Below, one piece after another: positions 10,142-60,655 of a DNA stretch of 64,000 bases. Source of the DNA: Planomonospora sp. ID67723. GTDB lineage: Bacteria > Actinomycetota > Actinomycetes > Streptosporangiales > Streptosporangiaceae. The position numbers were made by a program, and so were the translations under genes. The stretch's first letter is position 1; every line of letters starts with the position of its first letter. The notes beneath the pieces are model-generated. The model searched no databases, was not told the origin of the DNA, and saw nothing but the letters and a program-made list of their open reading frames with translations. The stretch is from the NCBI RefSeq assembly GCF_015711605.1, contig NZ_JABTEZ010000007.1, forward strand, positions 62,001-126,000, in the 5' to 3' direction.

Positions 10142-10171
10142 CCCATCGGCGACGCTTCTCCCCGTATGAGG
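10142..10171 (-). promoter_or_regulatory. Sigma-28 (FliA/WhiG)-type promoter of fliM operon
   Basis: CCTCA, 16 bases, GCCGATGGG on the minus strand. One of twelve sites in the window with this form and spacing. Confidence 0.8.
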
Positions 10172-10304
10172 AAATGCCGGAAATCGGGTTCACCTCGTGA
10201 CGGAGGGTCCCGTGTCCCGCGGGGCCGCGCCCCGCCGATGTTCTGTTCTCTCCCTGCTTCAGGTGCTCCTTTCCGCCCGGTGCGGCGGGTGTGAGGGGGT
10301 CTCG

Positions 10305-10354
10305 CGGGCCGGCCGGCCCGGGTGGTCCTGCCCGGGCCGGCCGGCCCGGGCAGG
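10305..10354. terminator. Double GC palindrome between fliL and fliM
   Basis: A 28-base perfect palindrome at 10327-10354 (half site GGCCGGCCCGGGCAGG read outward) lies beside a related 16-base palindrome at 10305-10320 (CGGGCCGG / CCGGCCCG). They follow the fliL stop by 16 bases and probably end the flbD-motA-motB-fliL message. No T-run. A cruciform or protein site is also possible. Confidence 0.5.
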
Positions 10355-10369
10355 TGGTACGGCGGGCGC

Positions 10370-10831
10370 CTACTGCATCACGAACTCGGTGAAGTAGATG
10401 TCCATGACCTCGCCCTCGTAGGCCTTCTCCACCTTCTCCAGCAGTTCCTTCTTGGCCAGGTTGCGCGCCTTGTCCGAGGAGAGCTCGTCGACCGGCCTGT
10501 TGCTGAACTGGTTGATGGCCAGGTCCAGGGCCTTGCTGCCGTCAGGCGCCTCCTTGACTTCCTTGGTCGCCTGCAGGGCCAGTTTGAGCTTGAGGAAGTG
10601 CCCGTCGGCCAGGTTGATGGTGATCGCGTCCAGCGCCGCGACGGCGCCGGGCTCCGGCTTGGGCTCCTCCGCCGGCTCCCCGCTCCCGGCGAAGAGCAGG
10701 AAGTAGGCCGCCGCGGCCGCCACGACGACGAGTACGGCTCCGGCGATGATGAAGAGCTTCTTCTTCGACTTCTTGCCGCCGTCCTTCGCCTCCTCGGCGT
10801 CGGGCGCGGCCTTGAGCTTTGCGGTGGCCAT
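10370..10831 (-). CDS. fliL: Flagellar basal-body protein FliL
   Basis: 153 residues: lysine-rich cytoplasmic start, one membrane segment (about 26-47), an acidic Pro-rich linker and a stomatin-like extracytoplasmic domain (ITINLADGHFLKLKLALQATKE ... EVMDIYFTEFVMQ). FliL surrounds the stator and stabilises it under load. Follows motB by 16 bases in the motA-motB-fliL run. Confidence 0.93.
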   Translation of the reverse strand: MATAKLKAAPDAEEAKDGGKKSKKKLFIIAGAVLVVVAAAAAYFLLFAGSGEPAEEPKPEPGAVAALDAITINLADGHFLKLKLALQATKEVKEAPDGSKALDLAINQFSNRPVDELSSDKARNLAKKELLEKVEKAYEGEVMDIYFTEFVMQ

Positions 10832-10847
10832 GGTTCTCTCCTGGGTG

Positions 10848-11753
10848 TCAGTGGCTCGTGCTGGGCACGCCCGCGGCGGCGGGCAGCAGCGCCTTGGTCT
10901 GGGCGTCGAGGTCGGACAGGACGACCACCTCGACCCGGCGGTTCAGCGTCACCGACCGGGGGTCGGTGTCGGGGTAGAGCGGTCGCTGGTCGGCGTAGCC
11001 GGAGGCGTTCACCCGCGAGGCGGGAAGGCCCCTGGTGATCAGCCTGCGGACCACCGTGGAGGCCCGCGCGGTCGACAGCTCCCAGTTCGACGGGTACGGG
11101 CCCGAGTTCACCGGCAGCCAGTTGGTGTGCCCGTCGACCTCGATCTTGTTCTTCTCGGTGCGCAGGGCCGGAGCGATCGCGTCGATGATCCTGCGGCCGT
11201 CCGACAGCAGCGTGGCGCTGTTGTTGCCGAACACGACGGAGCTGGTGACGACGGTGACGACCAGGCCGCGCTCGTCGACGCGGAACTGCACGCTGTCGGA
11301 GGCGTTCTGCTTGTTCAGCGCCGCCTGGATCTTCTTCTTGATCCGGTCGAACTTCTCGACCTCCTTCTCCGCGTTCTTCGCGCGGGCGGAGGCCTTGGCA
11401 CGGTCGAGGGCGGCGAGGGCGGCACGGGCCTGCTTCTCCGCCTCCTCCTTCTCTTCCTTGGTGGCCGGGGCGGAGATGTCCATGGGGGCCGAGTCGCCGC
11501 CGCCGGCGTCGCCGGCCACCGCAGAGCCCGGTGCGGCGAAGGTGACCGAGGGGTTGCCGAAGGCCATCGACAGGCTCGACTTGAGCGCGTTGAACTTGTT
11601 CTGGTCGACCTGGCTCATGGCGAACAGCACGATGAACAGGGCCATCAGCACGGTCAGCATGTCGCCATAGGTGACCAGCCAGCGCTCGTCGGCGTGCGCC
11701 TCCTCCTCATGGCCTCCCGCGTGCTTCTTGTGTCGGCGGACCTTGGTGCTCAT
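10848..11753 (-). CDS. motB: Flagellar stator protein MotB
   Basis: 301 residues. The single membrane helix begins TYGDMLTVLMALFIVLFAMS; Asp31 is the proton-carrying residue. An Ala/Lys/Glu-rich linker follows, then an OmpA-like peptidoglycan-binding domain (VDGHTNWLPVNSG, NWELSTARASTVVRRL, GYADQRPLYPD, RRVEVVV). It anchors the stator to the wall. The ATG overlaps the motA stop. Confidence 0.96.
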   Translation of the reverse strand: MSTKVRRHKKHAGGHEEEAHADERWLVTYGDMLTVLMALFIVLFAMSQVDQNKFNALKSSLSMAFGNPSVTFAAPGSAVAGDAGGGDSAPMDISAPATKEEKEEAEKQARAALAALDRAKASARAKNAEKEVEKFDRIKKKIQAALNKQNASDSVQFRVDERGLVVTVVTSSVVFGNNSATLLSDGRRIIDAIAPALRTEKNKIEVDGHTNWLPVNSGPYPSNWELSTARASTVVRRLITRGLPASRVNASGYADQRPLYPDTDPRSVTLNRRVEVVVLSDLDAQTKALLPAAAGVPSTSH

Positions 11754-12523
11754 CAGGCGGCCTTCTTCTCCTCGGCCTCACCCGGGGGAAGCAGGCTCCT
11801 GAGCTTCTGCGAGACCAGGCGCGGGTTGGTGCCGGCCTGGATGTTGGCGATGCCCTCGATGGTCAGTTCCATCTGGGCGCACTCCAGCTCGCTGAGGCGC
11901 TTGAGCCGGTTGCCGATGGGCAGCCAGATCACGTTGGCGCTGAACACGCCCCACAGCGTCGCGACGAACGCGGCGCCGATCATGTGTCCGAGCTTCGAGG
12001 GGTCGCTGAGGTTCTCCAGGACCAGCACGAGGCTGATGACGGTGCCGATGATGCCGATCGTGGGGGCGTAGCCGCCCATGTCGGTGAAGATCTTGGCGCC
12101 GGACTTGTCGGCCTTGCGCTTGGCCTCGACCTCGGCCTCCAGGATCTCCCGGAGCTCCTCGGGGTCGGTGCCGTCGATGGCCAGCTCCAGGCCGCGGCGG
12201 AGGAACGGCTCCTCCACTTCCTTGATCGCGTCCTCCAGGGCCAGCAGGCCCTCGCGGCGGGCGCGCTCGGCGAGCTTGACGATCGACTCGACCAGCTCGG
12301 TGCCGGGCACCGGCTTGGACTTGATGGCCCGCTGGATCTGCTTGCCGATGCCGAGGCTGTCGCGCAGGACGCCGCCGGCCATCGCCACACCGAAGGTGCC
12401 GCCGAAGACCAGGATGAGCGGGGCCGGGAGCATGATCGACATCGGGTCGGCGCCCTCGAGCAGCATCATCGCCAGCATGGAGACGACGGCGATGCCGATA
12501 CCTGCCAGGGTTGCCGGATCCAT
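11753..12523 (-). CDS. motA: Flagellar stator protein MotA
   Basis: 256 residues with four membrane segments and the conserved cytoplasmic loop that contacts FliG (ESIVKLAERARREGLLALEDAI). The GGYAPTIGIIGTVISLVLVLENL and GAAFVATLWGVFSANVIWLPIGNRL segments line the proton channel. Starts directly after the flbD stop, consistent with coupled translation. Confidence 0.96.
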   Translation of the reverse strand: MDPATLAGIGIAVVSMLAMMLLEGADPMSIMLPAPLILVFGGTFGVAMAGGVLRDSLGIGKQIQRAIKSKPVPGTELVESIVKLAERARREGLLALEDAIKEVEEPFLRRGLELAIDGTDPEELREILEAEVEAKRKADKSGAKIFTDMGGYAPTIGIIGTVISLVLVLENLSDPSKLGHMIGAAFVATLWGVFSANVIWLPIGNRLKRLSELECAQMELTIEGIANIQAGTNPRLVSQKLRSLLPPGEAEEKKAA

Positions 12524-12808
12524 TTATCGCTCCTGCCGGTGGAGGCGCACGACACGCGCCTGATCGGATTCGGCGGAACCGGTGGACGGCAGGCGGTGCG
12601 TGCCCGAGGAGACGAGGATCTCGGCGTCGGCGATCAGCTCGGCGCGGTAACGGCGCACCAGGCCGAGGAACTCGCTCAGGGACTCCGCGATGATGTACTT
12701 GGTCCCGTCCACGAGAGTGATCACCGTGTCGGGAGTCTGGTCGGCTCGCTCGATCAGGTCCGGGTTCAGTGCGAACTCCGGCCCGTTGAGGCGCGTAAGA
12801 AGTATCAC
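12524..12808 (-). CDS. flbD: FlbD-family flagellar protein
   Basis: 94 residues from GTG 12808 (VILLTRLNGPEFALNPDLIERADQTPDTVITLVDGTKYIIAESLSEF). This matches the short FlbD/SwrD family, which in Bacillus raises stator power and always sits next to motA. GGACGG precedes the start. The open frame continues far upstream but that part overlaps a sigma-28-type promoter at 12873-12902 and lacks family similarity. First gene of the motA-motB-fliL operon. Confidence 0.9.
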   Translation of the reverse strand: MILLTRLNGPEFALNPDLIERADQTPDTVITLVDGTKYIIAESLSEFLGLVRRYRAELIADAEILVSSGTHRLPSTGSAESDQARVVRLHRQER

Positions 12809-12872
12809 TGGGGTCCGTCCCTTGAAGTCGTCGGCGGGCAGCGAGCGGCCATCCCTGAACCGCGCTGTCTTC

Positions 12873-12902
12873 CCCATCGGCCGCCGCCGGTCCCGCCTGA
12901 GG
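12873..12902 (-). promoter_or_regulatory. Sigma-28-type promoter of flbD-motA-motB-fliL
   Basis: CCTCA, 16 bases, GCCGATGGG on the minus strand, about 65 bases before the flbD start. The spacer nearly repeats that of the flhA promoter. Confidence 0.8.
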
Positions 12903-13322
12903 AAACACGGCGGCCGAGGTCCCCGTCCGCGCGGACCGCCCGGTTTCGGCGTTGCCCCCGGCACGGTCGTGGCACTAAGATCGAAAACGTGACTGCCGGG
13001 TCGGCCATGGGCCAACGACGAGTAGGGCACCCGGCCGCCGAGTGAGCGCCGGGCGGCCCAGAGGTCCGCCTTCTTCTCTCCTCCCGCGCCTCCCGCGTGA
13101 GGTCTCCACGTGCTCGGCGGCGCGCCGCCGCCGCTTCCGGGGACCGTCGGCGAGCCCGCCGGATGCACGGCGAGCCTTCGCCGCCCCCCTGGTTTCCGCA
13201 CGCCACCACTCCTGCACCACGGCCGAGGCCGCCCGTGGTGAGCCCTTACCGCCCGCCGGGCGGTTGTCCGTCATGCCCGCGAACGGCCCGCGGGACCACC
13301 GATCCCGACCAGAAAGCAGAGA
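12903..13322. other. Intergenic, no gene recognised
   Basis: Divergent gap between the flbD promoter and the F420-type/hemerythrin gene. Frames here in both strands lack family similarity. No clear promoter, repeat or RNA was seen apart from general GC-rich inverted repeats. Confidence 0.5.
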
Positions 13323-14159
13323 ATGCCGAACGATTTCAACCAGCAGATCATCGAAGAGTTCCGCGCCAACCAAGGACGTGTCGGCGGCATGTTCGAGGGG
13401 GCCCGGCTGCTGCTGCTGACCACCACCGGAGCACGGTCCGGCACCCGGCACACGACCCCGGTCGGCTACTTCCCCGACGGCGGCGAGCGGGTCCTGATCA
13501 TCGCCTCGGCCGGCGGCGCGCCGAACCACCCCGCCTGGTTCCACAACCTGGTGGCCGACCCCCGCGTCACCGTCGAGGACGGCGTCTTCACCTACGAGGC
13601 CGAGGCCGTCGTCCTTCAGGGCGCCGAGCGCGACCAGGCCTTCGCCCGCGCCGTCGAGGCCGACCCCGCGTGGGCCGACTACCAGGCCAAGACCTCGCGG
13701 GTCATCCCCGTGGTCGCCCTCCGGCAGGTCGCGGGCGGGCCGCCGAACGCGTCGTCGTGGGGCGCGGCCCTCAAGCTGATCCACGACGCGTTCCGCCGGG
13801 AACTCGCCCTGATCCGCAAGGAGATCGCCGAATCGGGCCCCGGCCTGGGCGCCCAGCTCCGGGTGAACTGCCTGACCTTCTGCCGGGGGCTGCACCACCA
13901 CCACACCAACGAGGACGCCGGGATGTTCCCGGCCCTCGCCGGGCAGCGCCCCGAGCTCGCCCCGGTCCTGGACCGGCTGGGCGAGGAGCACCTGAAGATC
14001 GCGGCTCTCCTCGACGACCTGCAGAAGGTCATCTCCGCCGAGGGCGCCGACCCGCTGCTGGTGCTCTCCGAGGTCGAGCGGCTCACCGATGCGCTGGAGA
14101 GCCACCTGACCTACGAGGAGGAGCAGCTGATCCCGATCCTCGACGCCCCGGCCTCCTGA
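13323..14159 (+). CDS. F420-type nitroreductase/oxidoreductase fused to hemerythrin domain
   Basis: 278 residues. Residues 1-135 are a Ddn/DUF385-like split-barrel (LLLTTTGARSGTRHTTPVGYF, HPAWFHNLVADPRVTVE), a family that binds the deazaflavin F420. Residues about 150-278 are an HHE hemerythrin domain (LHHHHTNEDAGMFP, EEHLKIAALLDDL, HLTYEEEQLIPIL) that would hold a di-iron site. The fusion is known in actinobacteria; the substrate is not. ATG 13323 follows a purine-rich AGAAAGCAGAGA. Sits on the opposite strand inside the flagellar island, so it is an insertion relative to the usual gene order. Confidence 0.85.
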   Translation: MPNDFNQQIIEEFRANQGRVGGMFEGARLLLLTTTGARSGTRHTTPVGYFPDGGERVLIIASAGGAPNHPAWFHNLVADPRVTVEDGVFTYEAEAVVLQGAERDQAFARAVEADPAWADYQAKTSRVIPVVALRQVAGGPPNASSWGAALKLIHDAFRRELALIRKEIAESGPGLGAQLRVNCLTFCRGLHHHHTNEDAGMFPALAGQRPELAPVLDRLGEEHLKIAALLDDLQKVISAEGADPLLVLSEVERLTDALESHLTYEEEQLIPILDAPAS

Positions 14160-14240
14160 ACCGACGCCGTCCTGAATCCGGTCGTACGGCAGGCGCCTGC
14201 CGTACGACCGCACCCGGAGCGCGGTTCGCCGCCTTCCGCA

Positions 14241-14299
14241 AATAGTGGAACAGATCATTCCGATCTGCTATTCTGGAACAGAACGAAACATTCTGTTCC
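14241..14299 (+). promoter_or_regulatory. Two inverted repeats, candidate operators upstream of the epoxide-hydrolase-like gene
   Basis: AATAG-TGGAA-CAGATC-ATTCC-GATCTG-CTATT spans 14241-14272, and GGAACAGAA-N7-TTCTGTTCC spans 14275-14299. Both share GGAACAGA half sites and end 19 bases before the start codon at 14318. The layout suits a TetR-type repressor, but no such gene is adjacent. Confidence 0.6.
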
Positions 14300-14317
14300 C
14301 GGACGTGAGGACTGAGC

Positions 14318-15439
14318 ATGAGCGCGATCCGCCCCTTCCGCATCGAGATCCCTCAGGCCGACGTCGACGACCTCCGCGACCGGCTCGTCCGCGCCCGCTG
14401 GGGCACCGAGATCCCCGGCCAGGGCTGGTCGCGCGGCGTGCCGGTCGACTACCTGCGCGGCCTGGCGCAGTACTGGGCCGACGGCTACTCCTGGCGCGCC
14501 GCGGAGGCCCGCCTCAACGAGCTGCCGCAGTTCCTGACGGAGGTCGACGGCCAGACCCTGCACTTCGCGCACGTCCGCTCCGCCAACCCGGACGCGGTCC
14601 CGCTGCTGATCACGCACGACTGGCCGGCGTCGTTCGTCCTCTACCTGCCGGTGATCGAGGCCCTCTCCGCCGACTTCCACGTCGTGCTCGCCAGCAACCC
14701 CGGCGTCGGCTTCTCGGGCCCGCTGACGGCGCCCGGCTGGAACACCGGCAAGGCGGCCGCCGCCTTCAACGAGATCATGGCTCGCCTCGGCTACGACCGC
14801 TACGGCGTCCAGGGCACCGGCGGAGGCGGCTGGATCGCGGTGGAGATGGGCCGCCAGGCCCCGTCCCACGTCATCGGCGTCCACGTCAACGGCCATGTGA
14901 CCTTCCCCTCGGACGACCCGGCGGACTTCGCGGACCTGACCCCGGCCGAGCAGGAGCGCCTGCAGCGGCTGCAGGAGTTCCGCGACGACAAGATGGGCTT
15001 CAACGCCATCCAGTCGACCCGGCCGCAGACCCTGGCCTTCGGCCTGCACGACTCGCCGGTGGGACAGCTGGCCTGGATCGTCGAGAAGTTCAAGGAGTGG
15101 ACGGACCCGTCGGCCGAGCTGCCCGAGGACGCGGTCGACCGCGATCTGCTGCTGACCAACGTGAGCCTGTACTGGTTCACCGGGACGGCGGGCTCGTCGG
15201 CCAACGTCTACTGGGAGGGCGCGCACGACCCGTCGGCGTGGGCCCCGAAGGAGAAGTCGGCCGTGCCGCTGGGCGTCGCCCTCGGCGTCACCGACATCAC
15301 GGTCCGCCGGTACGCGGAGCGGGACGCGCCCGTCGTCCACTGGACGGAGCTCCCCCGGGGCGGCAACTTCCTCTCGGCCGAGCAGCCCGGCCTGTTCGCC
15401 GACGACGTCCGCGCCTTCTTCGAGAACCACCGCAAGTGA
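14318..15439 (+). CDS. Epoxide-hydrolase-family alpha/beta protein lacking catalytic residues
   Basis: 373 residues. The N-terminal EHN domain (FRIEIPQADVDDLRDRLVRARW) and the alpha/beta-hydrolase core are normal in length and order. However, the nucleophile motif, usually QGGDWG, reads QGTGGGGW, so the Asp is a Gly. The general base in the usual GGHFAA-EQP motif reads GGNFLSAEQP, so the His is an Asn. The oxyanion motif HGWPGS is HDWPAS. The protein should not hydrolyse epoxides by the family mechanism and may be a binding protein or use another chemistry. The start follows a GTGAGGACTGAGC leader and two inverted repeats. Confidence 0.8.
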   Translation: MSAIRPFRIEIPQADVDDLRDRLVRARWGTEIPGQGWSRGVPVDYLRGLAQYWADGYSWRAAEARLNELPQFLTEVDGQTLHFAHVRSANPDAVPLLITHDWPASFVLYLPVIEALSADFHVVLASNPGVGFSGPLTAPGWNTGKAAAAFNEIMARLGYDRYGVQGTGGGGWIAVEMGRQAPSHVIGVHVNGHVTFPSDDPADFADLTPAEQERLQRLQEFRDDKMGFNAIQSTRPQTLAFGLHDSPVGQLAWIVEKFKEWTDPSAELPEDAVDRDLLLTNVSLYWFTGTAGSSANVYWEGAHDPSAWAPKEKSAVPLGVALGVTDITVRRYAERDAPVVHWTELPRGGNFLSAEQPGLFADDVRAFFENHRK

Positions 15440-15550
15440 GACGACCGGCGTGTGCCCCGGATGACCTCGCTTCCGAGCGGGCTCCGGGGCACGGCCCTTT
15501 CAGACCGCGATCTCCGCGCCGCCGTACGGCACCGCGCGGGTGAAGCGAAA

Positions 15551-15585
15551 GGCCCCGGGCACGCGTGCGGTGCGTGCCCGGGGCC
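15551..15585. terminator. Bidirectional terminator hairpin
   Basis: Perfect 14-base stem GGCCCCGGGCACGC / GCGTGCCCGGGGCC with a seven-base loop, between the convergent epoxide-hydrolase-like gene and flgE. Confidence 0.8.
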
Positions 15586-15616
15586 GGTGCGATCCCCGCA
15601 TGCGGGGAGGCGCAGA

Positions 15617-16465: not shown

Positions 16466-16466
16466 T

Positions 16467-16928: not shown

Positions 16929-16952
16929 GTGCGATTCCTTGCGGGAGACGGA

Positions 16953-18200: not shown

Positions 18201-18214
18201 GATCGTCTCTCCTG

Positions 18215-18349
18215 TTATCCGATGCCGTTCACGGTCGACTGGATGGTGCTGCGGTAGGCCTGGACCTGAGCGGACAAGCCGGTACTCAGCTCATCGGCAG
18301 CACCGCACGGCACCTGCGGCAAAACGTCCATTCCGTTGGAGCCGATCAC
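18215..18349 (-). CDS. Short unknown ORF between fliJ and fliK
   Basis: 44 codons from GTG 18349, read VIGSNGMDVLPQVPCGAADELSTG at its start and ending 14 bases before the fliK start codon. Its GTG overlaps the stop of another short frame that runs on from the fliJ stop. In related actinobacteria a wall hydrolase gene often stands here, so this 260-base stretch may be a decayed remnant. No family is recognised. Confidence 0.3.
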   Translation of the reverse strand: MIGSNGMDVLPQVPCGAADELSTGLSAQVQAYRSTIQSTVNGIG

Positions 18350-24689: not shown

Positions 24690-24719
24690 CTCATCGGACG
24701 GCGCGGAGAGGTCCTGAGA
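24690..24719 (-). promoter_or_regulatory. Sigma-28-type promoter of the flgB operon
   Basis: TCTCA, 16 bases, TCCGATGAG on the minus strand, about 75 bases before the flgB start. Confidence 0.7.
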
Positions 24720-24755: not shown

Positions 24756-24786
24756 CCTCAGGTGACGACGGCGTCCTGCCGATGCT
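24756..24786 (+). promoter_or_regulatory. Possible sigma-28-type promoter of the peptidase-like gene
   Basis: CCTCA, 17 bases, GCCGATGCT on the plus strand, divergent from the flgB promoter and about 35 bases before the start at 24822. The spacer is one base longer than at the other sites. Confidence 0.5.
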
Positions 24787-25563: not shown

Positions 25564-26472
25564 ATGGGGCGACGACCTCCGGCGGACGGCGGCCTGACCG
25601 ACGGACCGGCACCGCTGCGGAGCCCGCGGCCGAGGCGTCGCCTGCGCGGACCCGCCGGGACGCTCGCCGTACTCGTCGTGGCGGCTGTCGCTCTCGCCCC
25701 CGCCGCCGCCTGCGCAGCCCCGGCCGGGACGCGGGCGATGTGGCTGTGGCAGAAGGCCGACCCCGCCGCCGTGGTGCGGTGGGCCACCGCCCAGAAGGTG
25801 AGCGAGATCTTCGCCTACGTGCCGCCGAAGCTCAGCGGGAGCGAGCGCACCCGCCTGGCCAAGCTGAAGAAGGGCGCCGACGCCGCCGGGATCAGGCTGG
25901 CCGCCCTCGGCGGCACCCCCGAGTGGGCCTTCGACCACGCCGCCGCGCTGGCCTGGCAGCGCACCGCCATGGGCACCGGGCTGTTCCACGCCGCCCACGT
26001 CGACGTGGAGCCGTACCACCTGCCCGCCTGGAAGACCGACCAGGCGGGGACCGCCGCGTCCTTCGCCGCGCTCCTGGCCAAGCTGCGCGACGCCGACCCC
26101 CGGCCGCTCGAGGCCGACGTGCCGTTCTGGTACCACACCGTCCCGTCCGGCACCCGCACCCTGGCCGACGAGGTCCTGGCCCGCGTCGACGCGGTGACCG
26201 TCATGTCCTACCGCGACACCGCCACCGGCACCGGCTCGATCATGGAGATCTCCGCCGACATGCTGCGCCGCGGCGAACAGGCCGGCCGCCCGGTACGGCT
26301 CGGCGCCGAGACCCTCGATCTCCCCGACTGCCCGCACTGCACCTTCTACGGGCAGAGCCGCCAGGCCCTGACCGCCGCGCTGGCCGAAGTCGACGCCGCC
26401 GCCGCGGCCTATCCCGCCTACGCCGGCATCGCCGTCCACGACTACGCCGCCTGGACCGCCCTCCGCCCCTGA
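25564..26472 (+). CDS. Secreted protein, probable TIM-barrel fold, unknown function
   Basis: 302 residues. A long basic start and hydrophobic segment to about residue 52 (LAVLVVAAVALAPAAACAAPAG) form a signal peptide. The mature part (GTRAMWLWQKADPAAVVRWATAQKVSEIFAYVP, AAHVDVEPYHLPAW, DAVTVMSYRDTATG, YAGIAVHDYAAW) alternates strands and helices, with acidic residues at strand ends, as in glycosidase-like barrels. No named family is recognised. ATG 25564 has GGAG eight bases upstream. 79 bases after the peptidase gene and perhaps cotranscribed. Confidence 0.65.
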   Translation: MGRRPPADGGLTDGPAPLRSPRPRRRLRGPAGTLAVLVVAAVALAPAAACAAPAGTRAMWLWQKADPAAVVRWATAQKVSEIFAYVPPKLSGSERTRLAKLKKGADAAGIRLAALGGTPEWAFDHAAALAWQRTAMGTGLFHAAHVDVEPYHLPAWKTDQAGTAASFAALLAKLRDADPRPLEADVPFWYHTVPSGTRTLADEVLARVDAVTVMSYRDTATGTGSIMEISADMLRRGEQAGRPVRLGAETLDLPDCPHCTFYGQSRQALTAALAEVDAAAAAYPAYAGIAVHDYAAWTALRP

Positions 26473-31030: not shown

Positions 31031-31060
31031 CCGATCGGCACGAGGAAGGACCGCTTGAGG
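31031..31060 (-). promoter_or_regulatory. Sigma-28-type promoter of the secreted repeat protein
   Basis: CCTCA, 16 bases, GCCGATCGG on the minus strand, about 38 bases before the GTG start. Confidence 0.72.
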
Positions 31061-33969: not shown

Positions 33970-33999
33970 CCCATCGGCCGCGCGGAGCCCGATCTGAGG
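33970..33999 (-). promoter_or_regulatory. Sigma-28-type promoter of MCP1
   Basis: CCTCA, 16 bases, GCCGATGGG on the minus strand, about 65 bases before the start. Confidence 0.8.
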
Positions 34000-38484: not shown

Positions 38485-38514
38485 CCCATCGGCCGCCGCC
38501 GGATCCTCCTGAGG
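38485..38514 (-). promoter_or_regulatory. Sigma-28-type promoter of flhA-flhF-PilZ operon
   Basis: CCTCA, 16 bases, GCCGATGGG on the minus strand, about 75 bases before the flhA start. Confidence 0.8.
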
Positions 38515-39848: not shown

Positions 39849-39878
39849 CCGATCGGCAGAAAGCAGGCGTTGCTTAGC
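39849..39878 (-). promoter_or_regulatory. Possible sigma-28/WhiG-like promoter of wecB
   Basis: GCTAA, 16 bases, GCCGATCGG on the minus strand. The -35 departs from the CTCA seen elsewhere but approaches the TAAA of WhiG sites. Confidence 0.4.
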
Positions 39879-40146
39879 CAGATCCGGCGCCCGCCGGAAG
39901 TCGTCGGTGCGGGCGGGACGGCGGGGCCGGCACCGGGATCTCAGATCGCGGTCTCCGCCGCCGATGGGGGCGGCGGTCCCCGCCCCCGGGAGCCTCCGGC
40001 GTCTGCGGGGATCTTCCCGTCTTCGCGGGTCTCCCCGTCCCGGAGGGCTTTCCCGGGCCTTCGGGATCCGCGGTCCGCGGCGCTTGCCCGCCGCGCGCAC
40101 GCCGCCGTCTCTGCTCCTGAAATATGACTGTTCCGCTCCTCGAAAT

Positions 40147-40176
40147 CCTCAACCGACGCCCTACGCGGCCGATCTT
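40147..40176 (+). promoter_or_regulatory. Sigma-28-type promoter of MCP2 and sugar-binding lipoprotein
   Basis: CCTCA, 16 bases, GCCGATCTT on the plus strand, about 50 bases before the MCP2 start. Confidence 0.75.
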
Positions 40177-43110: not shown

Positions 43111-43140
43111 CCTCAACTTCGGCCTCGCGCTACCGATCTG
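43111..43140 (+). promoter_or_regulatory. Sigma-28-type promoter of MCP3
   Basis: CCTCA, 16 bases, ACCGATCTG on the plus strand, about 33 bases before the start. Confidence 0.65.
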
Positions 43141-44418: not shown

Positions 44419-44448
44419 CCTCAGATAAGGGCGGCTGGTGCCGATGGG
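44419..44448 (+). promoter_or_regulatory. Sigma-28-type promoter of MCP4
   Basis: CCTCA, 16 bases, GCCGATGGG on the plus strand, about 33 bases before the start at 44482. Confidence 0.8.
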
Positions 44449-47259: not shown

Positions 47260-47556
47260 ATGGAGATGGAGCAGATCGGGATCGTCGAAGCCCGTAAGCG
47301 CCTGGGCACCCTGGTGTCCCGCGCCGTGCACGGCCACATCCCGGTGCGCATCAGCCGCTCGGCCGACGAGCACGCCGTGCTCATCGGCGAAGAGGAGTAC
47401 GCCGAGCTCCAGCGGCTCCGGGCGCAAGCCGAGGTCGCGGAGATGAAGGAACGCATGGCGGCCGTGGAGCGCGGCGAGGCCCGGCTGACCGGCTTCGCCG
47501 GCAAGGAGGCGGCCTACGCCCACTTCGGCGTGCCGCTGCCGGGCACACGTGACTGA
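47260..47556 (+). CDS. Phd/YefM-type antitoxin
   Basis: 98 residues: MEQIGIVEARKRLGTLVSRAVHGHIPVRISRSADEHAVLIGEEEYAELQ is the Phd/YefM DNA-binding fold, followed by a helical toxin-binding tail. ATG 47260 (or 47266) has no evident ribosome site; the AT-rich region before it holds GTGTACAC and ATGTGTCCACAT, likely operator repeats. Coupled to the next gene (TGATG). Confidence 0.85.
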   Translation: MEMEQIGIVEARKRLGTLVSRAVHGHIPVRISRSADEHAVLIGEEEYAELQRLRAQAEVAEMKERMAAVERGEARLTGFAGKEAAYAHFGVPLPGTRD

Positions 47557-47792
47557 TGCGGACCGTTCTGTGGAGCTCCCAGGCCGAGGAGTCGGTCCTG
47601 AAGCTGCCGCTCGGCCTGCGCGCGGCCGTCCTGGAGACGGTCTACTCCCTGCCGGAGGAGCCCGAGCCGCTCGGCACGCGGCCGTACGGGATGATCCCGG
47701 CCGCTTTCGAGATCGTGACGGACTCCTTCACATTGCGCTACACCTACGGCGACGACCACGTGTCCGTCTGGGTCGTCCGGGCCAACACCTGA
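47556..47792 (+). CDS. RelE/ParE-like toxin
   Basis: 78 residues (MRTVLWSSQAEESVLKLPLGLRAAVLETVYSLPEEPEPLGTRPYGMIPAAFEIVTDSFTLRYTYGDDHVSVWVV). The arrangement of two helices then beta strands fits RelE-type ribonucleases. Start shares a base with the antitoxin stop. Intact, unlike the related gene at 26.5 kb. Confidence 0.75.
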   Translation: MRTVLWSSQAEESVLKLPLGLRAAVLETVYSLPEEPEPLGTRPYGMIPAAFEIVTDSFTLRYTYGDDHVSVWVVRANT

Positions 47793-50284: not shown

Positions 50285-50291
50285 CGCGGTG

Positions 50292-51137: not shown

Positions 51138-51141
51138 CGGG

Positions 51142-52307: not shown

Positions 52308-52337
52308 CCTATCGACAGACAGGGCGCGGGGATAAGG
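52308..52337 (-). promoter_or_regulatory. Probable sigma-28-type promoter of the che operon
   Basis: CCTTA, 16 bases, GTCGATAGG on the minus strand, about 55 bases before cheB. Two mismatches from the common form but identical spacing. Confidence 0.5.
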
Positions 52338-52500: not shown

Positions 52501-52529
52501 CCGGCGCGTGCCGGACCGGCACGCGCCGG
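52501..52529 (-). terminator. Terminator hairpin of the MFS gene
   Basis: Perfect 14-base arms CCGGCGCGTGCCGG / CCGGCACGCGCCGG separated by one base, five bases past the stop. Confidence 0.7.
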
Positions 52530-52533
52530 GCCG

Positions 52534-53922: not shown

Positions 53923-54068
53923 GGTCGTTCTTCCTCTCCGGATACTCACGGCCGAGAGGTTTCGCTGTGCCCACCCCGCCGAGTCGCGCCACAACGTGCC
54001 GGCGCCGCAGGAGGGCGGTCGTGCGGCACGCGGGCCCCAAAGGCTCCGGGCGCTCCGTCCTCCGCAGG

Positions 54069-54098
54069 TCCATCGGCACGGGGCGGCGGGCCCTGAGT
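54069..54098 (-). promoter_or_regulatory. Sigma-28-type promoter upstream of the MFS gene
   Basis: ACTCA, 16 bases, GCCGATGGA on the minus strand, about 140 bases before the MFS start. No other minus-strand gene lies between. Confidence 0.6.
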
Positions 54099-54118
54099 GT
54101 TCGCGGGCGCGGACACGC

Positions 54119-54149
54119 CGACGGCTCCGGCGGGGAGCCGGAGCCGTCG
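54119..54149 (-). terminator. Terminator hairpin of MCP5
   Basis: 12-base perfect stem CGACGGCTCCGG / CCGGAGCCGTCG, seven-base loop, 45 bases past the MCP5 stop. Confidence 0.75.
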
Positions 54150-54193
54150 GTGGACCGCCGGGGGACAGCGATCCGGGGGAGGCGGGGTCGTCG

Positions 54194-55780
54194 TCAGACG
54201 GAGAAGCGGCCGACGACGGCGCGCAGCTCCTCGGACATGCGGGCGAGCTCCTCGGAGGCCCGCTGGGTGTCGCCCACGCTCGAGCTGGTGAGCTGGGCCG
54301 CCTGGGCCACCGCCGAGATGTTCCCGGCGATCTGCCCGGAACCGGCCGCGGCCTCGGCCACGCTGCGGTTCATCTCGTTGGTGGTGGCGGTCTGCTCCTC
54401 CACCGCGCTGGCGATGGTGAGCTGGTAGTCGTTGATCCGCGCGATGATGTCGCTGATCTCCGCGATCGCCGCCACCGCGCCGCTGGTGTCGGCCTGGATG
54501 GCCTCGACCCGCTTGGCGATGTCCTCGGTGGCCTTGGCGGTCTCCTGGGCCAGGTCCTTGACCTCGCCCGCCACGACCGCGAAGCCCTTGCCGGCGTCGC
54601 CGGCGCGGGCGGCCTCGATGGTGGCGTTGAGCGCCAGCAGGTTGGTCTGCTCGGCGATGCTCGTGATCGTCTTGATCACACTGCCGATCTCCGCGGAGGA
54701 CGCCCCCAGCTTGCCCACGATCTCGTTGGTCGACTGCGCCGCGGTCACCGCCTGCGCGGCCACCTTGGCGGCCTCACTGGCGCTGTGGGCGATCTCGCGG
54801 ATCGCCGAGCCCATCTCCTCGGCGCCGGCGGAGACCGTCTCCACGTTGCGGGAGACCTCGTCGGCGGCGGCGGTCACGACCCCCGCCTGCAGGCTGGTCT
54901 CCTCGGCGCTGGCGGCGATCTGGGTGCTGGTGACGGTCAGCTCCTGCGAGGCCGAGGCCAGCGAGGTCGACGATCCGTCGATGGTGCGCACCGCGCTCCG
55001 CATCGACTCGATCGCCTGGTTGAGCGCAACGCCCATCTCGCCGACCTCGTCCCGGCTGCGGACCCCCACCCGGCCGGTCAGGTCGCCGGCGGCGACCCGC
55101 TTGAGCGTGTCGGCCACCGAGCGCACCGGGCCGACGATCACCCGGGAGACCACCAGGGCGCTGGCGACCCCCCAGACCATGCCGACGGCCAGGAGAAGGA
55201 TGACGAGGAAGCGGGCGGAGTCCACGGTCTCGTTGAACTCGGCGCTGGCGGACAGCTTGGCGGTCGCCTCCTCCAGGGCGGCGTCCAGCTTCTCCTCGTA
55301 GGCCTTGCGCAGCGCCCGGTTGGCGCCGAGGGCCGCCTCGGTCGCGGCCGCCTTGTCGGTGGCGTAGAGGGTGAACTCGGCGGCCAGGGCGTCCTTCCAC
55401 GCGCCGATGCTGTCGGCGATCTCCTCCACCTGCGCGCTCTGCGCCGGGGAGTCGGCGAAGGCGGCGGTCTCCCCGAGAGCGTCATCGATCTTCGCGAACC
55501 GCTCCGCGACCTCGTCACTGAACCCGGGGTCCCCGGTCATCAGGAACCCGCGCTCGTCATTGGCGGCGGCCTTGGCTGTCAGCGCGACCTTCTGCAGGCC
55601 GGTGATGAACGGAACGGACTTCTGCAACTGCTCGTTGTGCACGTCCTGCAGGGCGCTGATCTTCATCAGGCCGGTCACCCCGGTGACCACGGCGGTCAGG
55701 GCGAGGATCGCCACCGCCATGAAGATCTTCGTGCTGATCCGGCGGTCCGCCAGCAGCCGCCAGGGTCCCTTCACTTCCAC
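54194..55780 (-). CDS. Methyl-accepting chemotaxis protein (MCP5)
   Basis: 528 residues from GTG 55780 with GAGGA six bases upstream (GTG 55786 is too close to it). Membrane segments at about 17-40 and 190-210, CHASE3/4HB-like sensor between ([19 protein letters not shown]), HAMP, and tip [39 protein letters not shown]. The signalling half is nearly identical to MCP1, suggesting duplication. Confidence 0.95.
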
Positions 55781-55832
55781 TGTCACTCCTCAAGCCGCTC
55801 CGGGCGGCGTTTTAGTCATAGGTGCCCGACCC

Positions 55833-55862
55833 CTCATCGGCACAGGGGAGAAGGACCTGAGC
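55833..55862 (-). promoter_or_regulatory. Sigma-28-type promoter of MCP5
   Basis: GCTCA, 16 bases, GCCGATGAG on the minus strand, about 53 bases before the start. Confidence 0.75.
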
Positions 55863-55947
55863 CGGGGAACAGGCTTTCCCACCCGCGCGCCCGGGATTTT
55901 CGTACGGTGCCGCCCCGGTAGGGCCGAGCCCTCGCCGCGCGGCTCCG

Positions 55948-58386
55948 TCAGCCGGCCAGCCGCTCGCCTCCGGCGGGCTCGGGCCCGCCGAGGGGGGACC
56001 GGCGCCCGGACGGGCCCTCGATCTCACCTTCGGTCAGCAGCCGGCCCAGCTCGGCGGCGGGCACCGGCCGGCTGAAGAGGTATCCCTGACCCAGCGGGCA
56101 GTGCATGTCCCGCAGGAACTCCTCCTGTTCGCTGGTCTCCACCTTCTCCGCGATGGCGGGCAGGTCCAGGCTCTCGCAGAGGCTGAGGATCGCCTTGGTG
56201 AAGGCGTGCCGCTGGCGCGAGTCGGAGTCCGTCCCGCGTTCGAGGGTGGTGAAGGCGCCGTCGATCTTGACCACGTCCACCGGCAGGTGCTGCAGGTAGG
56301 CCAGCGAGGAGTACCCGGTCCCGAAGTCGTCGATGGCGATCCGCACGCCGTGCCGGCGCAGGTCCGACAGGTAGCCGATGACCCGGGCGGTCTCCTCCCG
56401 GCCCGTGGCGAGCAGCGCGGTCTCGGTGATCTCCAGGATGAGCGCGTCCCCCGGCAGACCGCTCTCCTCCAGCGCCGTCAGCACCGAGGAGACGAACTCC
56501 TTGCGGCGGAGCTGCCGGCCGGAGACGTTGACGTTGACGGCGATGCCGTAGCGCTCGTACCAGAGGGCCGCGTCGCGGCAGGCGCGGCGGAGCACCTGGG
56601 CGCCGATCGGCACGACCAGGCCGGTCTCCTCGGCGGTGGGGATGAACGCGTCCGGCGGGACGATCCCGTCGGGGGACTGCCAGCGCAGCAGCGCCTCGAC
56701 GGCCTGGACCTGCCCGGTCGCCAGGTCCACCACGGGCTGGTAGTTCAGTACGAACTCCTCCCGCTCCAGCGCACGGCGCAGACCCTCGGTGAGGCGGGCC
56801 TGGCCGAGCTGCTCGACGCGCAGGCCCGGGTGGAAGACGCTGATCTGGTTCTTGCCCGCGGCCTTGGCCGCGTACAGGGCGAGGTCCGCGTCGCGCATGA
56901 CGTCCTGCGCCGCGGCCGACTCGGCGATCATGTACAGGCCCACGCTGGCGGTGACGTGGAAGGAGTGCTCGCCCACGGCGAAGGGCCGGGCCATCACGTC
57001 GACGACCCGCGCGGCCACGTGGCCCGCCTCCTCGGCGCTCACGTCCTCCAGCAGGATGGCGAACTCGTCTCCGCCGAGCCGGGCCAGCGTGTCGGCCTCG
57101 CGCAGGATCTCGCCCAGCCGGTGACCGGCCTGGACGAGGAGCTGGTCACCGGCCGGGTGGCCGTAGGTGTCGTTGACGTGCTTGAACCCGTCGAGGTCGA
57201 GCATGAGCAGGGCGTGCCTGGCCTCGGGCGCGCGCCGGACGGTGGCCTGCTCCAGCCGGTCGTGGAAGAGCGCCCGGTTGGCCAGGCCGGTCAGGTGGTC
57301 GTGCATCGCCCGGTGGCTGAGCAGCTGCTGCAGGGCCTGCTGCTCCTCCAGCGCCCGGGAGAGTTCGGCGGCCTGCTCGTCGAGCAGCGAGGCGCGGCGC
57401 TCGGCCACATTGGTGTTGGTGATCAGCCGGAAGACCAGGAACACCATCAGGACGATGAAGATGGCCATCGGCACCACGAGTTCGGACGGCCGCACCACCG
57501 TGCCGGGCTCCATGTTGAACGCGAGGGAGAGCGGTCCCGCGCAGGCCGCCACCAGGAAGGTGAGGCTCCGCGCGGTGGTGAGGCGGGCGGCGCGGGTCTC
57601 CGCGCCGCGGGCCGCGGGGTGCAGCACGGACGCGCCCATGAGGACGAACCACACCAGCCAGCCGGCGTTGCCGAGGAGGCCGTAGTTCCAGCTCTCCCCG
57701 CGCTGGAGCATCATGGCGTAGGTCACGTCGCCGAAGAGCATCCCGGCCAGGCCCAGGTTGAGCATCGCGTAGGACGGGTTGCGCAGGCCGTGCGTGAACC
57801 AGAGCCGGACCGCCATGAAGTGGACGATCATGTCCGCGAAGGGGAACGTCGACGCCAGCAGCAGGTCCCGGCCCGACAGCGTCCGGAATCCCCCGTAAGG
57901 GTTGAAGGACATCGTCCAGTACACGAAGAGCAGCCCCAGCACGATGACCATCGCATCCAGCATCACGCCGACGTTCCTGGAGCGGATCGAGTTGCCCGGC
58001 ATCTTCCCCAGGCCCGCGATCAGCAGCGGGTACGCCGCCAGGTAGGCCAGGTCGATCCACGGAGGGACCTCACCGCCGTCCGCTCTCAGGTACCAGCCCG
58101 TCCACAACAGGTCGGCGCCGACCCATGCCGCCAGGCCCGCGGCCAGCAGCCGCCACGCCGCCGCCGCGGCCGGGCGCTGCCGGCGGATCCCGGCGACCAT
58201 CGTGATCACGGCGCCGATCGACACGAGCAGCCTGGTCATCACCCCGGCCTGGTCCGGCAGGAGCAGGCCGGCGACGCTCAACGCCGCACCGGCCAGGAGG
58301 AAGACCAGCCAGAGGCGGGATCGGATGCCCGTACCGCGCCGCCTCCGGTCCGTCGCCCTCTTCAGGAGGGAGGCGTCTGGCTGCAT
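55948..58386 (-). CDS. Membrane GGDEF-EAL protein (c-di-GMP synthase/phosphodiesterase)
   Basis: 812 residues from ATG 58386 with AGGAGAAG upstream. About nine membrane segments in residues 20-320 form a sensor of unknown type. The GGDEF domain has an intact active site (TLARLGGDEFAILL), with DLDGFKHVNDTYGHPAGDQLL. The EAL domain has VQAVEALLRWQSPDG, NVNVSGRQL, LEITETALL and IAIDDFGTGYSSLAYLQHLPVDVVKIDGAF, so it too looks active. Net direction cannot be told. It would feed or drain the pool read by the PilZ protein at 34.4 kb. Confidence 0.93.
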   Translation of the reverse strand: MQPDASLLKRATDRRRRGTGIRSRLWLVFLLAGAALSVAGLLLPDQAGVMTRLLVSIGAVITMVAGIRRQRPAAAAAWRLLAAGLAAWVGADLLWTGWYLRADGGEVPPWIDLAYLAAYPLLIAGLGKMPGNSIRSRNVGVMLDAMVIVLGLLFVYWTMSFNPYGGFRTLSGRDLLLASTFPFADMIVHFMAVRLWFTHGLRNPSYAMLNLGLAGMLFGDVTYAMMLQRGESWNYGLLGNAGWLVWFVLMGASVLHPAARGAETRAARLTTARSLTFLVAACAGPLSLAFNMEPGTVVRPSELVVPMAIFIVLMVFLVFRLITNTNVAERRASLLDEQAAELSRALEEQQALQQLLSHRAMHDHLTGLANRALFHDRLEQATVRRAPEARHALLMLDLDGFKHVNDTYGHPAGDQLLVQAGHRLGEILREADTLARLGGDEFAILLEDVSAEEAGHVAARVVDVMARPFAVGEHSFHVTASVGLYMIAESAAAQDVMRDADLALYAAKAAGKNQISVFHPGLRVEQLGQARLTEGLRRALEREEFVLNYQPVVDLATGQVQAVEALLRWQSPDGIVPPDAFIPTAEETGLVVPIGAQVLRRACRDAALWYERYGIAVNVNVSGRQLRRKEFVSSVLTALEESGLPGDALILEITETALLATGREETARVIGYLSDLRRHGVRIAIDDFGTGYSSLAYLQHLPVDVVKIDGAFTTLERGTDSDSRQRHAFTKAILSLCESLDLPAIAEKVETSEQEEFLRDMHCPLGQGYLFSRPVPAAELGRLLTEGEIEGPSGRRSPLGGPEPAGGERLAG

Positions 58387-58767
58387 CGTCTTCTCCTGGC
58401 GTGTGGTCATCTGCCGTGGTGGTACAGGTCGTGGGGGCGTGAGCCGGTCGGGTTCGCCCGGGGGACGGGCGGTCCCGCGGGCACGACCAGGAGAGGGGGA
58501 GGGCCCGATACCGGTGACGGGCAGGGGTTCAGCGCGCGCCGGGGGCCGGATCGGCCATCGAACCGACGTTCGGTCATGCGGGATGAGCGTTCGGTTGCTC
58601 CACGGGTGCAGATCCGTTGCCGGGGAGGCCACGCGAATTCAAAGCCTCGGTCACAACCACATGAACAGGGTTGATAACGTTCTGTTTGGGGTGAATCGCT
58701 ATATGTGATGAAGCTTCAAGGTTCTGGGGAGGACCGTGAGGCGCCGGGGGAGCCTGTGGGGGGCAGC
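58387..58767. other. Divergent intergenic region
   Basis: Between the GGDEF-EAL and kinase genes. The stretch at 58640-58705 is AT-richer and probably holds the kinase promoter (TTGATAACG region). No sigma-28-type site with correct spacing and no RNA structure was seen. Confidence 0.4.
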
Positions 58768-59847
58768 ATGCTGAACAGCGGTGATCGTCTTGGTCGCACC
58801 GCCTCGTATCGGCCTGATGCTTCGGACACGACCCGGGCGATCCTCGGCCTGCTCAGCGAACGGCTGCGCGGCTCCGACGACTCCGGCGGGGTGAGCACGG
58901 ACACGACGCTGCTGTCCGGGCTGCGCAGCGTTCCCGGCATCTCCTCCGCGGAGCTGCGGCCGGCCGACGCCTCCCCGCCACCCGACGGGGAGCTGTTCTG
59001 GCCTGCCGGACCCGGCAGGCTGCTCGCCGTGGTCCTGGAGGAGGGCTACAACGGCCACGGGATCCCCGAGGCGCTCTCCTGCCTGGCCGCGGCCCTGGAG
59101 GCGATCTGGCGCCGGGACGAGGAAACCCGCGCCGACTCCTCCTCCGACACCACGCTGGCCAAGGCGAAGACGGAGTTCATCGGCCAGGTCGTGCACGACC
59201 TGGCCACTCCCATAACGCCGATCCTGGCCTACGCCGGCCTGCTGTCCGATCCGGACACCGGGCCGCTCACCACCGACCAGCGCGAGTTCGTGAAGGTGAT
59301 CGAGCGCAACGCCCTGCGCCTGTCCGAGCTGCTCAACGATCTGCCCCTGCTGGCCGACCCGGCCTCTCCCGAGCTGGAGCTGCGTTCGGAACGGGTGGAC
59401 CCGATGGAGCTGCTGCGCGACATCACCGCCCAGTTCCGGCCCGGAGCCATGCACGCCGGGATCACCCTCCGGTACCAAGCCCGCCCCGGCCCGGCTCTGA
59501 ACTGCAACGCGATCCGGATCCGCCGCATGTTCGACCTCCTGCTGACCACGGCGATCACCCGCTCCCACCCCGGCGGGACCGTCGAGGTCGACGCCCGGCC
59601 CACGGTCGACGGATGGTGGATCGACGTCATCTGCCTGCCCGCCACCTCCGAGGCGGGCCCCGGCGATGCGGCCGAACGGCGCGAGCAGCCCGCAGGAGAG
59701 ACCGCCTGGCCCCGGATCGGCATGGCCAGGGCCATCGCCGGCATGCACGGCGGCACGATCGACATCACCGACCAGGGGACGAAGGGGTCGGTGATCAGAG
59801 TGGAACTGCCCTGGGAACCGCTCCGAGACCGGAGGGAAGCACCTTGA
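58768..59847 (+). CDS. Soluble histidine kinase with degenerate ATP site
   Basis: 359 residues from ATG 58768 (GTG 58705 and ATG 58708 are alternatives). No membrane segment. An N-terminal divergent GAF-like region is followed by a HisKA helix with QVVHDLATPITPILAYAGLL. The catalytic domain is unusual: the N-box reads FDLLLTTAITRSHPGGT without the conserved Asn, and the DxGxG box is replaced by VDGWWIDVICLPATSEAG. It may dimerise and pass phosphate without ATP binding, or act as a phosphatase or scaffold. Overlaps the response regulator gene (TTGA). Confidence 0.78.
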   Translation: MLNSGDRLGRTASYRPDASDTTRAILGLLSERLRGSDDSGGVSTDTTLLSGLRSVPGISSAELRPADASPPPDGELFWPAGPGRLLAVVLEEGYNGHGIPEALSCLAAALEAIWRRDEETRADSSSDTTLAKAKTEFIGQVVHDLATPITPILAYAGLLSDPDTGPLTTDQREFVKVIERNALRLSELLNDLPLLADPASPELELRSERVDPMELLRDITAQFRPGAMHAGITLRYQARPGPALNCNAIRIRRMFDLLLTTAITRSHPGGTVEVDARPTVDGWWIDVICLPATSEAGPGDAAERREQPAGETAWPRIGMARAIAGMHGGTIDITDQGTKGSVIRVELPWEPLRDRREAP

Positions 59848-60563
59848 GCAAGCTGCTGGTCATCGAAGACGACTCCGACACTCTCACCGCCATCCAGGTG
59901 CTCCTCAGTCACGGCGGGCACGAGGTGATCCCCGCGACGGACGGCCGCAGCGGCCTGCGTCTGCTGCACCAGCACAAGCCGGACGTGCTGATCCTCGACA
60001 TCGGCCTGCCCATCATGGACGGCTGGCAGGTGCTCGAGCGGGTCAGGGACATCAGCGACCTTCCGATCCTGATCCTCACCGGCCGGGGACAGGAGCGGGA
60101 GAAGGTGCGAGGGCTGCGCGCCGGAGCCGACGACTATCTCGTCAAGCCGTTCTCCCGTGCCGAGCTCACCGCCCGCGTGGAGGCGCTGCTGCGCCGCTCC
60201 GGCGCGGCGACGTGGGCCGAGGACGTCTACGACGACGGGGTCGTGCGGGTGGAGCCGTCGACCCGCACGGTCTTCGTCGAGGGCAACGACGTCCATCTGA
60301 CGCCCACCGAGTTCCGCCTGCTCAACACGCTCGTCCGGCACGCCGGCAACGTCCTGAGCTCCTCCCAGCTGCTCTCCCTGGTCTGGGACGACCCGACGGG
60401 CCTCAGCCCGGAGCGGGTGAAGTTCGCGATCCTGCGCCTGCGCCGCCGCATCGGCGCCGACGCGGCCAGCTCGCCCATCGAGGCGGTCCGCGGCGTGGGG
60501 TACCGCTACCGCCCCCCGACCCAGCAGCAGGGCGGTCGTGACGCCCTGTCCGCCCGGCGCTGA
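59844..60563 (+). CDS. OmpR-family response regulator
   Basis: 239 residues from TTG 59844 with GGAGGGAAG upstream. Receiver domain: Glu8-Asp9-Asp10, phosphoacceptor Asp52 in LILDIGLPIMDG, Lys in VKPF. C-terminal winged helix (VHLTPTEFRLLNTLVRHAGNVLSSSQLLSLVWDD ... AILRLRRRIG ... VRGVGYRYR). Partner is the overlapping kinase-like gene. Targets unknown. Confidence 0.94.
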   Translation: MSKLLVIEDDSDTLTAIQVLLSHGGHEVIPATDGRSGLRLLHQHKPDVLILDIGLPIMDGWQVLERVRDISDLPILILTGRGQEREKVRGLRAGADDYLVKPFSRAELTARVEALLRRSGAATWAEDVYDDGVVRVEPSTRTVFVEGNDVHLTPTEFRLLNTLVRHAGNVLSSSQLLSLVWDDPTGLSPERVKFAILRLRRRIGADAASSPIEAVRGVGYRYRPPTQQQGGRDALSARR

Positions 60564-60625
60564 CGGCCCCGGGGTCCGCGGGGGCGCGCCCATCGGCCGT
60601 CCGGGGCCCGGGAGCAGGCGTTTCA

Positions 60626-60655
60626 CCTCACTTCTGACCGTTTTCTGCCGATTCT
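60626..60655 (+). promoter_or_regulatory. Sigma-28-type promoter of the secreted metalloprotease
   Basis: CCTCA, 16 bases, GCCGATTCT on the plus strand, about 85 bases before the start at 60743. Confidence 0.75.

Follow-up and report, generated by a model that had tools for sequence, protein, structure and literature searches.

A probable sigma-28-type promoter with a CTCA -35 element upstream of flagellar, chemotaxis and most GGDEF genes in Planomonospora sp. ID67723

A stretch of 64,000 nucleotides from Planomonospora sp. ID67723 (contig NZ_JABTEZ010000007.1, positions 62,001 to 126,000; hereafter the window) carries a repeated two-block element, CTCA and [GAT]CCGAT separated by 16 bases. 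These sites are very likely promoters of the sigma-28 (FliA) type, read by the one clear FliA/WhiG-family sigma factor of the genome and forming a single genome-wide regulon. RNA polymerase with this sigma would read a -35 of cTCA(G/A) and a -10 of GCCGAT, often then GG; measured from GCCGAT, the T of TCA and that of the textbook TAAA-N15-GCCGATAA lie at one and the same distance. The predicted regulon takes in genes for the flagellum (structure, export and motor), for chemotaxis and for chemoreceptors, along with cell-wall hydrolases, a PilB-like pilus ATPase and the majority of GGDEF enzymes, and it would presumably be switched on at zoospore formation. The motif, its spacing, placement and conservation, the content of the regulon and the co-occurrence of the sigma with flagellar genes were all read from sequence. 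Planomonospora forms motile spores, and zoospore formation is presumed for this soil bacterium from its genus.

The genome is 8.34 Mb in 9 contigs with 71% GC, and gene calling with a codon-based model gave 67 genes in the window, 87% of which is coding. A search of both strands with CTCA-N16-[GAT]CCGAT gave 13 matches in the window against 0.54 +/- 0.78 expected from 100 dinucleotide shuffles, the largest of which held 3. All 13 matches were intergenic and each faced a gene start 36 to 349 bases off, which bears out the claim of a first-pass annotation that exact spacing with the correct orientation was unlikely by chance. That annotation had listed twelve sites with an exact 16-base spacer. 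All twelve were present within 3 bases of where it had placed them, and nine indeed preceded flagellar operons or chemoreceptors, namely fliM, flbD, flgB, flhA and five genes for methyl-accepting chemotaxis proteins. The remaining three were upstream of a secreted-looking protein, an MFS transporter and an M10-type peptidase. The thirteenth match, at 39940-39965 on the + strand, was not in its list; counted as a miss, it makes the flagellar and chemotaxis share nine of 13. The whole genome held 82 matches, of which the window, 0.8% of its length, accounts for 13, and the pattern read backward as a control gave 20. Among the 82, 49 were intergenic and had a gene start no more than 350 bases away, 4 were intergenic without such a start and 29 were intragenic, so an equal density in coding DNA was not seen. 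The 49 sites of the first group had a median distance of 68 bases to the start codon, in a single orientation.

The end of the second block was also informative. Versions with CCGAG or CCGAC (spacers of 14 to 18) occurred 13 times in the window and 12 of these were intragenic, therefore the final T of CCGAT matters. GCCGATGG was present at 7 of the 13 window sites, and GG or GA followed the T at 9. A weight matrix trained on the 36 intergenic sites outside the window only (matrix 1) recovered all 13 window sites. It gave 24 matches of at least 11.5 bits in the window, 6 of these intragenic, and two of the intragenic ones (15.5 and 15.2 bits) scored above the weakest listed site at 60627 (13.7 bits). 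The three near matches of the first-pass annotation fared differently: that at 24757 was real (CTCA-N17-GCCGAT, with nine of nine motif letters kept in a sister genome), that at 39852 was plausible (13.7 bits) and that at 52308 was weak (8.7 bits in a further scan).

Conservation was tested by finding orthologs through protein comparison and then aligning their upstream regions. The FliA protein of the window genome was nearest to that of Planomonospora venezuelensis (96%). In the sister genome G001, 12 of 13 testable sites kept nine of nine motif letters, these being 11 of the listed twelve and the N17 site at 24757, while over the 13 sites the spacers kept 148 of 209 letters and the flanks 381 of 520. 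The exception was 39940, with 3 of 9 motif letters, and this site is probably non-functional. In genome G016 all three testable sites (fliM, flbD and flgB) kept 27 of 27 motif letters versus 29 of 48 spacer letters.

In the textbook sigma-28 promoter, 15 bases lie between the -35 TAAA and the -10. When CTCA at N16 was set against TAAA at N15, the T and the A were equally far from GCCGAT, therefore the -35 departs from the textbook at the second base (C for A) and mostly also at the fourth. The fourth base in this register was G in 28 and A in 9 of the 49 intergenic sites. The leading G of the -10 was present in 37 of the 49; CCGAT itself was fixed by the search pattern. The spacer was 16 at the 13 window sites and 17 at 24757, with an occasional 15 or 17 elsewhere. 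The resemblance to the FliA/WhiG consensus with CTCA for TAAA, pointed out in the first-pass annotation, thus comes from base substitution within an unchanged -35 register, and the element is not shifted. The available part of PMC8325347 gives the sigma-28/FliA/WhiG consensus as a -35 of TAAA and a -10 of GCCGATAA. The window promoters share with it the GCCGAT core, the register of the -35 T and A, and flagellar and chemotaxis targets; they differ in the C at the second -35 base, a fourth base that is mostly G, and a -10 ending in GG or GA.

The FliA_WhiG family model had one clear match in the genome, at C7:141448 (186 bits), about 15 kb past the window end. The next 8 sigma matches scored at most 118 bits, and the one at 118 bits was another sigma-70-type gene. 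The sigma gene lies between flgN-flgK-flgL-fliW-csrA and two flagellin genes, and its product is homologous to WhiG (6pfv) and to Escherichia coli FliA (6pmi). FliF and a FliA-type sigma occurred together in 4 of 60 genomes and were both missing from the other 56. From these data we infer that this sigma reads the sites, and with it where transcription would start and when. The RsiG motif E(X)3S(X)2R(X)3Q(X)3D was not found in the window and about 38 kb of flanks, which was the only region searched. The two flagellin genes beside the sigma gene (L048:16464-17848; C7:142464-143848) are in tandem with identical first 80 residues, the second being truncated by the contig end; both have a CTCA promoter, the second one with CCCGAT. 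As an explanation of CTCA, the recognition helix was considered, since the CTCA-linked sigma clade has SQ[LM]R-x-EA versus SQ[LI]H in E. coli FliA and WhiG. The R alone does not explain CTCA, because it is also found in 8 of 9 flagellar loci of a deeper sigma clade, where CTCA-N16 is outside the top eight signals.

The promoter was also traced in other genomes. The form CTCA-N16-GCCGATGR had 34, 27 and 16 matches in three FliF-bearing members of the family, with backward controls of 5, 7 and 4. The 34 family members that lack both FliF and this sigma had 1 to 13 each, which leaves a narrow gap, 13 to 16, between the two groups. This exact pattern misses genome G052, from the same class and another family, with 3 genome matches. 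There, CTCA-N16-GCCGA[AT] was found upstream of flbD-, fliM-, flhA- and cheA-like genes, and the promoters read GCCGAAC, GCCGATAA or GCCGATCA. An unbiased scan of all tetramers upstream of [GAT]CCGA[TA] at spacings of 12 to 19 placed CTCA-N16 first in 12 flagellar loci, Nocardioides-like and others (34 observed versus 1.85 expected; L058 and L060-L070, with L059 excluded as having no nearby flagellar gene). It was again first in 7 further loci chosen for their flagellar genes (17 observed versus 0.91 expected; L104, L105, L137, L138, L141, L142 and L170); L104 and L105 contain no sigma gene, their genome having its sigma in L170. Of the 24 loci in which flagellar genes (flgK, flgL or others) lie near a sigma of this type, 23, all except L057, held one or more CTCA-N16 matches. 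Sigma loci without nearby flagellar genes (L059 and most of L071-L081) were mostly without CTCA-N16, and in seven WhiG loci it was outside the top eight signals, with one match in L174. Overall, flagellar loci from Planomonospora, Planobispora and Nocardioides-type genomes show the promoter code.

Targets outside the window included cheA, flagellin, chemoreceptors, a PilB-like ATPase with an MshEN domain, GH25 and CHAP proteins and many GGDEF/EAL proteins. The genes that the first-pass annotation had expected from a matrix scan were recovered. Promoters were found at flagellin (fliC; L048:16379) and cheA (L049:13264), and a GCCGAA form was found upstream of flgN (L048:15194), which lies directly before flgK and flgL. 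The secreted genes that it had also expected were represented by the cell-wall hydrolases GH25 and CHAP. Its view of one regulon is supported, yet the regulon is far wider than flagella, and enzymes of cyclic di-GMP (c-di-GMP) turnover are the largest class found.

The window genome contains 32 GGDEF domains and 22 chemoreceptor domains. A strict same-strand site within 2600 bases upstream was found for 14 of the 32 GGDEF domains (opposite-strand control, 1 of 32) and 10 of the 22 chemoreceptors (control, 2 of 22; one of the 10 indirect), and a fifteenth strict GGDEF case was a long kinase-GGDEF gene at C2:962978. A second matrix, built from the 49 intergenic sites, was applied to the 200-base upstream regions of 213 other genes in stretches of the same genome. 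These 213 were a non-random set, as the stretches had been chosen for holding a pattern match, a sigma gene, or a GGDEF or chemoreceptor gene. Seventeen of them reached at least 13 bits (10 GGDEF, 6 chemoreceptor and flgN), each one base or one spacer base off the strict form, and none of the other 196, which include some GGDEF and chemoreceptor genes without promoter, did so. An additional chemoreceptor at L049:7107 scored 16.1 bits. In total, a strict or one-change promoter preceded 25 of the 32 GGDEF genes and 16 of the 22 chemoreceptor genes; the chemoreceptor domain at C7:33207, whose upstream site meets an 80-aa gene first, was left uncounted and would make it 17 of 22.

Five relatives without FliF have three GGDEF genes each, and all 15 match C5:187668, C5:206063 or C5:796186 (five each), none of which has such a promoter in the window genome. 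These three core genes being promoterless, 25 of the 29 additional GGDEF genes have the promoter. The four additional genes without it include g62, a GGDEF-EAL protein gene inside the flagellar region (window 55948-58386, - strand). Among the 15 GGDEF loci of the FliF-less relatives, 10 extend upstream of the called start and none of these had a match. The called starts of the remaining five, all orthologs of C5:206063, sit close to the edge of their locus; in this group L270 had a 14.6-bit match about 60 bases before its called start. L270 is an exception to a clean split between core and expansion.

Other origins of the pattern were weighed against promoters read by this sigma. Codon or oligonucleotide bias in a genome of such high GC has next to no probability as the source of the sites as a whole. 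The 29 intragenic genome matches look like background, GATGR-form matches also occur in the 34 FliF-less relatives, and an origin in oligonucleotide bias is likely for those 29 and for 39940. However, such bias does not agree with the excess over shuffled sequence in the window, the intergenic position of all 13 window sites or the motif being kept at 12 of 13 sites in G001 while spacers drift. That the two blocks are half-sites of an activator or repressor instead of -35 and -10 elements is improbable. A dimeric regulator would also be compatible with fixed spacing and conservation, and the available part of PMC12691653 describes putative direct-repeat TcrA boxes upstream of gimA and gimB in Actinoplanes. 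However, neither block repeats the other in direct or inverted form, the 3' block has the -10 core of sigma-28 promoters, the spacing is promoter-like with its occasional 15 or 17, and the 49 intergenic sites keep one orientation and a short distance to the start codon. It is more improbable still that the promoters are real and are read by another sigma of the genome. Eight other sigma genes do match the family model, but more weakly; family members without this sigma show no genome-wide excess of the promoter, and nearly all loci that join this sigma type to flagellar genes close by hold one match or more.

Several observations weigh against sigma-28-type promoters read by this sigma. None of the sites has the textbook TAAA, and TAAA-N15 had zero matches in 75 loci with a sigma match. 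The -10 ends in GG or GA at 33 of the 49 intergenic sites and not in the textbook AA. The sigma itself scores 185-186 bits, slightly below the TIGR02479 curated cut-off of 189.6, and no promoter of this type was found upstream of the fliA gene. FlgM was below cut-off (best E 0.87); the FlgM model, a short one, reached its cut-off in no more than 3 of 14 control genomes, therefore a divergent FlgM could escape. In Planomonospora parontospora (L057), flgK, flgL and fliC were present with no CTCA-N16 match. Finally, CTCA-N16 was outside the top eight signals in nine loci of the deeper sigma clade with flagellar genes, with 2 matches in L155 and 1 in L157.

The sites of the window are collected in Table 1. 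Family matches were obtained for FliM, FlbD, FlgB, FlgC, FliF, FlhA, MotA, MotB, FlgN, FlgK, FliW, CsrA, CheA and chemoreceptors, as well as for two flagellin-domain proteins, FlgL and FliC; the FlhF match was weak.

Table 1. Predicted and candidate promoter sites in the window. Evidence is given as motif letters kept in genomes G001 and G016 or as matrix score.
Feature	Position	Strand	Evidence
Predicted promoter, 59 bases upstream of fliM (g12)	10145..10170	-	9/9 in G001 and G016
Predicted promoter, 68 bases upstream of flbD (g16), then motA, motB	12876..12901	-	9/9 in G001 and G016
Candidate weaker promoter, CGCA form, upstream of g21 (fliK-like by eye, no family)	18293..18318	-	14.6 bits (matrix 1), 15.5 (further scan)
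Predicted promoter, 80 bases upstream of flgB (g29), then flgC, fliE-like (by eye), fliF	24693..24718	-	9/9 in G001 and G016
Predicted divergent promoter, 17-base spacer, 39 bases upstream of g30 (220 aa, no family)	24757..24783	+	9/9 in G001
Predicted promoter, 42 bases upstream of g38 (211 aa, signal-peptide-like start by eye, no family)	31034..31059	-	9/9 in G001
Predicted promoter, 106 bases upstream of chemoreceptor g40	33973..33998	-	9/9 in G001
Predicted promoter, 104 bases upstream of flhA (g44), then flhF-like, PilZ genes	38488..38513	-	9/9 in G001
Candidate weaker promoter, CTAA-N16-GCCGAT, upstream of UDP-GlcNAc 2-epimerase g45	39852..39877	-	13.7 bits (matrix 1), 14.0 (further scan)
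Strict match, probably non-functional, 349 bases upstream of g46	39940..39965	+	3/9 in G001
Predicted promoter, 141 bases upstream of chemoreceptor g46	40148..40173	+	9/9 in G001
Predicted promoter, 36 bases upstream of chemoreceptor g48	43112..43137	+	9/9 in G001
Predicted promoter, 37 bases upstream of chemoreceptor g49	44420..44445	+	strict match; g49 without ortholog in G001
Predicted promoter, 168 bases upstream of MFS transporter g60	54072..54097	-	9/9 in G001
Predicted promoter, 56 bases upstream of chemoreceptor g61	55836..55861	-	9/9 in G001
Predicted promoter, 112 bases upstream of M10-type peptidase g65	60627..60652	+	9/9 in G001; 13.7 bits

Some neighbouring features were also recorded. 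Gene g31 (window 25738-26472) and a gene in L185 (L185:1736-2446) resemble each other by eye and have no family; the L185 gene has a strict CTCA site and g31 sits behind g30 with its N17 site. A c-di-GMP-II-GAG riboswitch (window 167-287, - strand, 45.6 bits) is apparently upstream of a gene resembling the DUF2334 gene g01 (439-2070), and g01 and this riboswitch-preceded look-alike are seemingly a tandem pair. A Tad-pilus-like cluster, assigned by eye, lies upstream of the chemotaxis genes (L049:1-6829; C7:42001-48829), and the adjacent short genes g51 and g52 (window 47260-47792) look antitoxin-toxin-like by eye.

Flagellar promoters of Actinoplanes missouriensis, attributed to Jang et al. 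2016, reportedly read CTCA(N15-17)GCCGAA. The promoters described here would share with these the CTCA -35, the spacing of 15 to 17, GCCGA at the -10 and the flagellar genes of a zoospore former. They differ in being mostly GCCGAT, often GCCGATGG, and not GCCGAA, in belonging to another actinobacterial family and in being tied, in the window genome, to most GGDEF and chemoreceptor genes. The GCCGAA form occurs here at flgN, and both GCCGAA and GCCGAT occur in G052. The string "CTCA" was not found in the available text of the Actinoplanes papers PMC12691653, PMC10733313 and PMC7682106, nor in that of PMC8325347. Literature searches with CTCA and flagellar terms, and with FliA, diguanylate cyclase and zoospore, gave this regulon in no title or abstract. 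Given the consensus reported for Actinoplanes, the promoter type itself is not new, and what looks new is the reach of the regulon.

The available part of PMC10746217 reports a surge of GGDEF/c-di-GMP enzymes in zoospore-forming actinobacteria and proposes a link to control of flagella. With most GGDEF genes here carrying a flagellar sigma promoter, the surveyed link becomes testable gene by gene. Judged from gene content and upstream regions, it is fairly probable that the flagellar sigma has captured the c-di-GMP network in this Planomonospora lineage, in which the enzyme surge of zoospore formers would be an expansion of the FliA regulon, each enzyme gaining or arriving with its promoter. 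This reading is weakened by the L270 match and by Micromonospora sp. NBRC 107566 (G452, the genome that contains L059), where 19 GGDEF genes were found, 11 were testable upstream and only 1 of these (L250) had the promoter. The results from G052 (three GGDEF genes, 2 testable, neither with the promoter) also speak against generality, and Nocardioides solisilvae (G453, L066) had no GGDEF match, so these three genomes do not extend the link beyond Planomonospora. In Rubrobacter, the available part of PMC8325347 describes a WhiG regulon of 12 promoters with mapped starts, 5 before diguanylate cyclase or phosphodiesterase genes and 3 in a type IV pilus cluster. As far as that part goes, the two systems share a FliA/WhiG-family sigma tied to c-di-GMP enzymes and type IV pili, and the Rubrobacter system differs in its TAAA promoters and in an RsiG anti-sigma that binds c-di-GMP. 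The comparison suggests the same link between sigma and c-di-GMP at a larger scale, for a flagellar sigma.

A short spaced promoter before the genes for swimming and most of those for c-di-GMP suggests one flagellar factor for the whole swimming-spore programme. If the capture of the c-di-GMP network is true, c-di-GMP turnover would be built in the swimming cell and could time the stop of swimming. In addition, the promoter code offers a route to predict actinobacterial motility regulons which a search with the textbook TAAA would miss.

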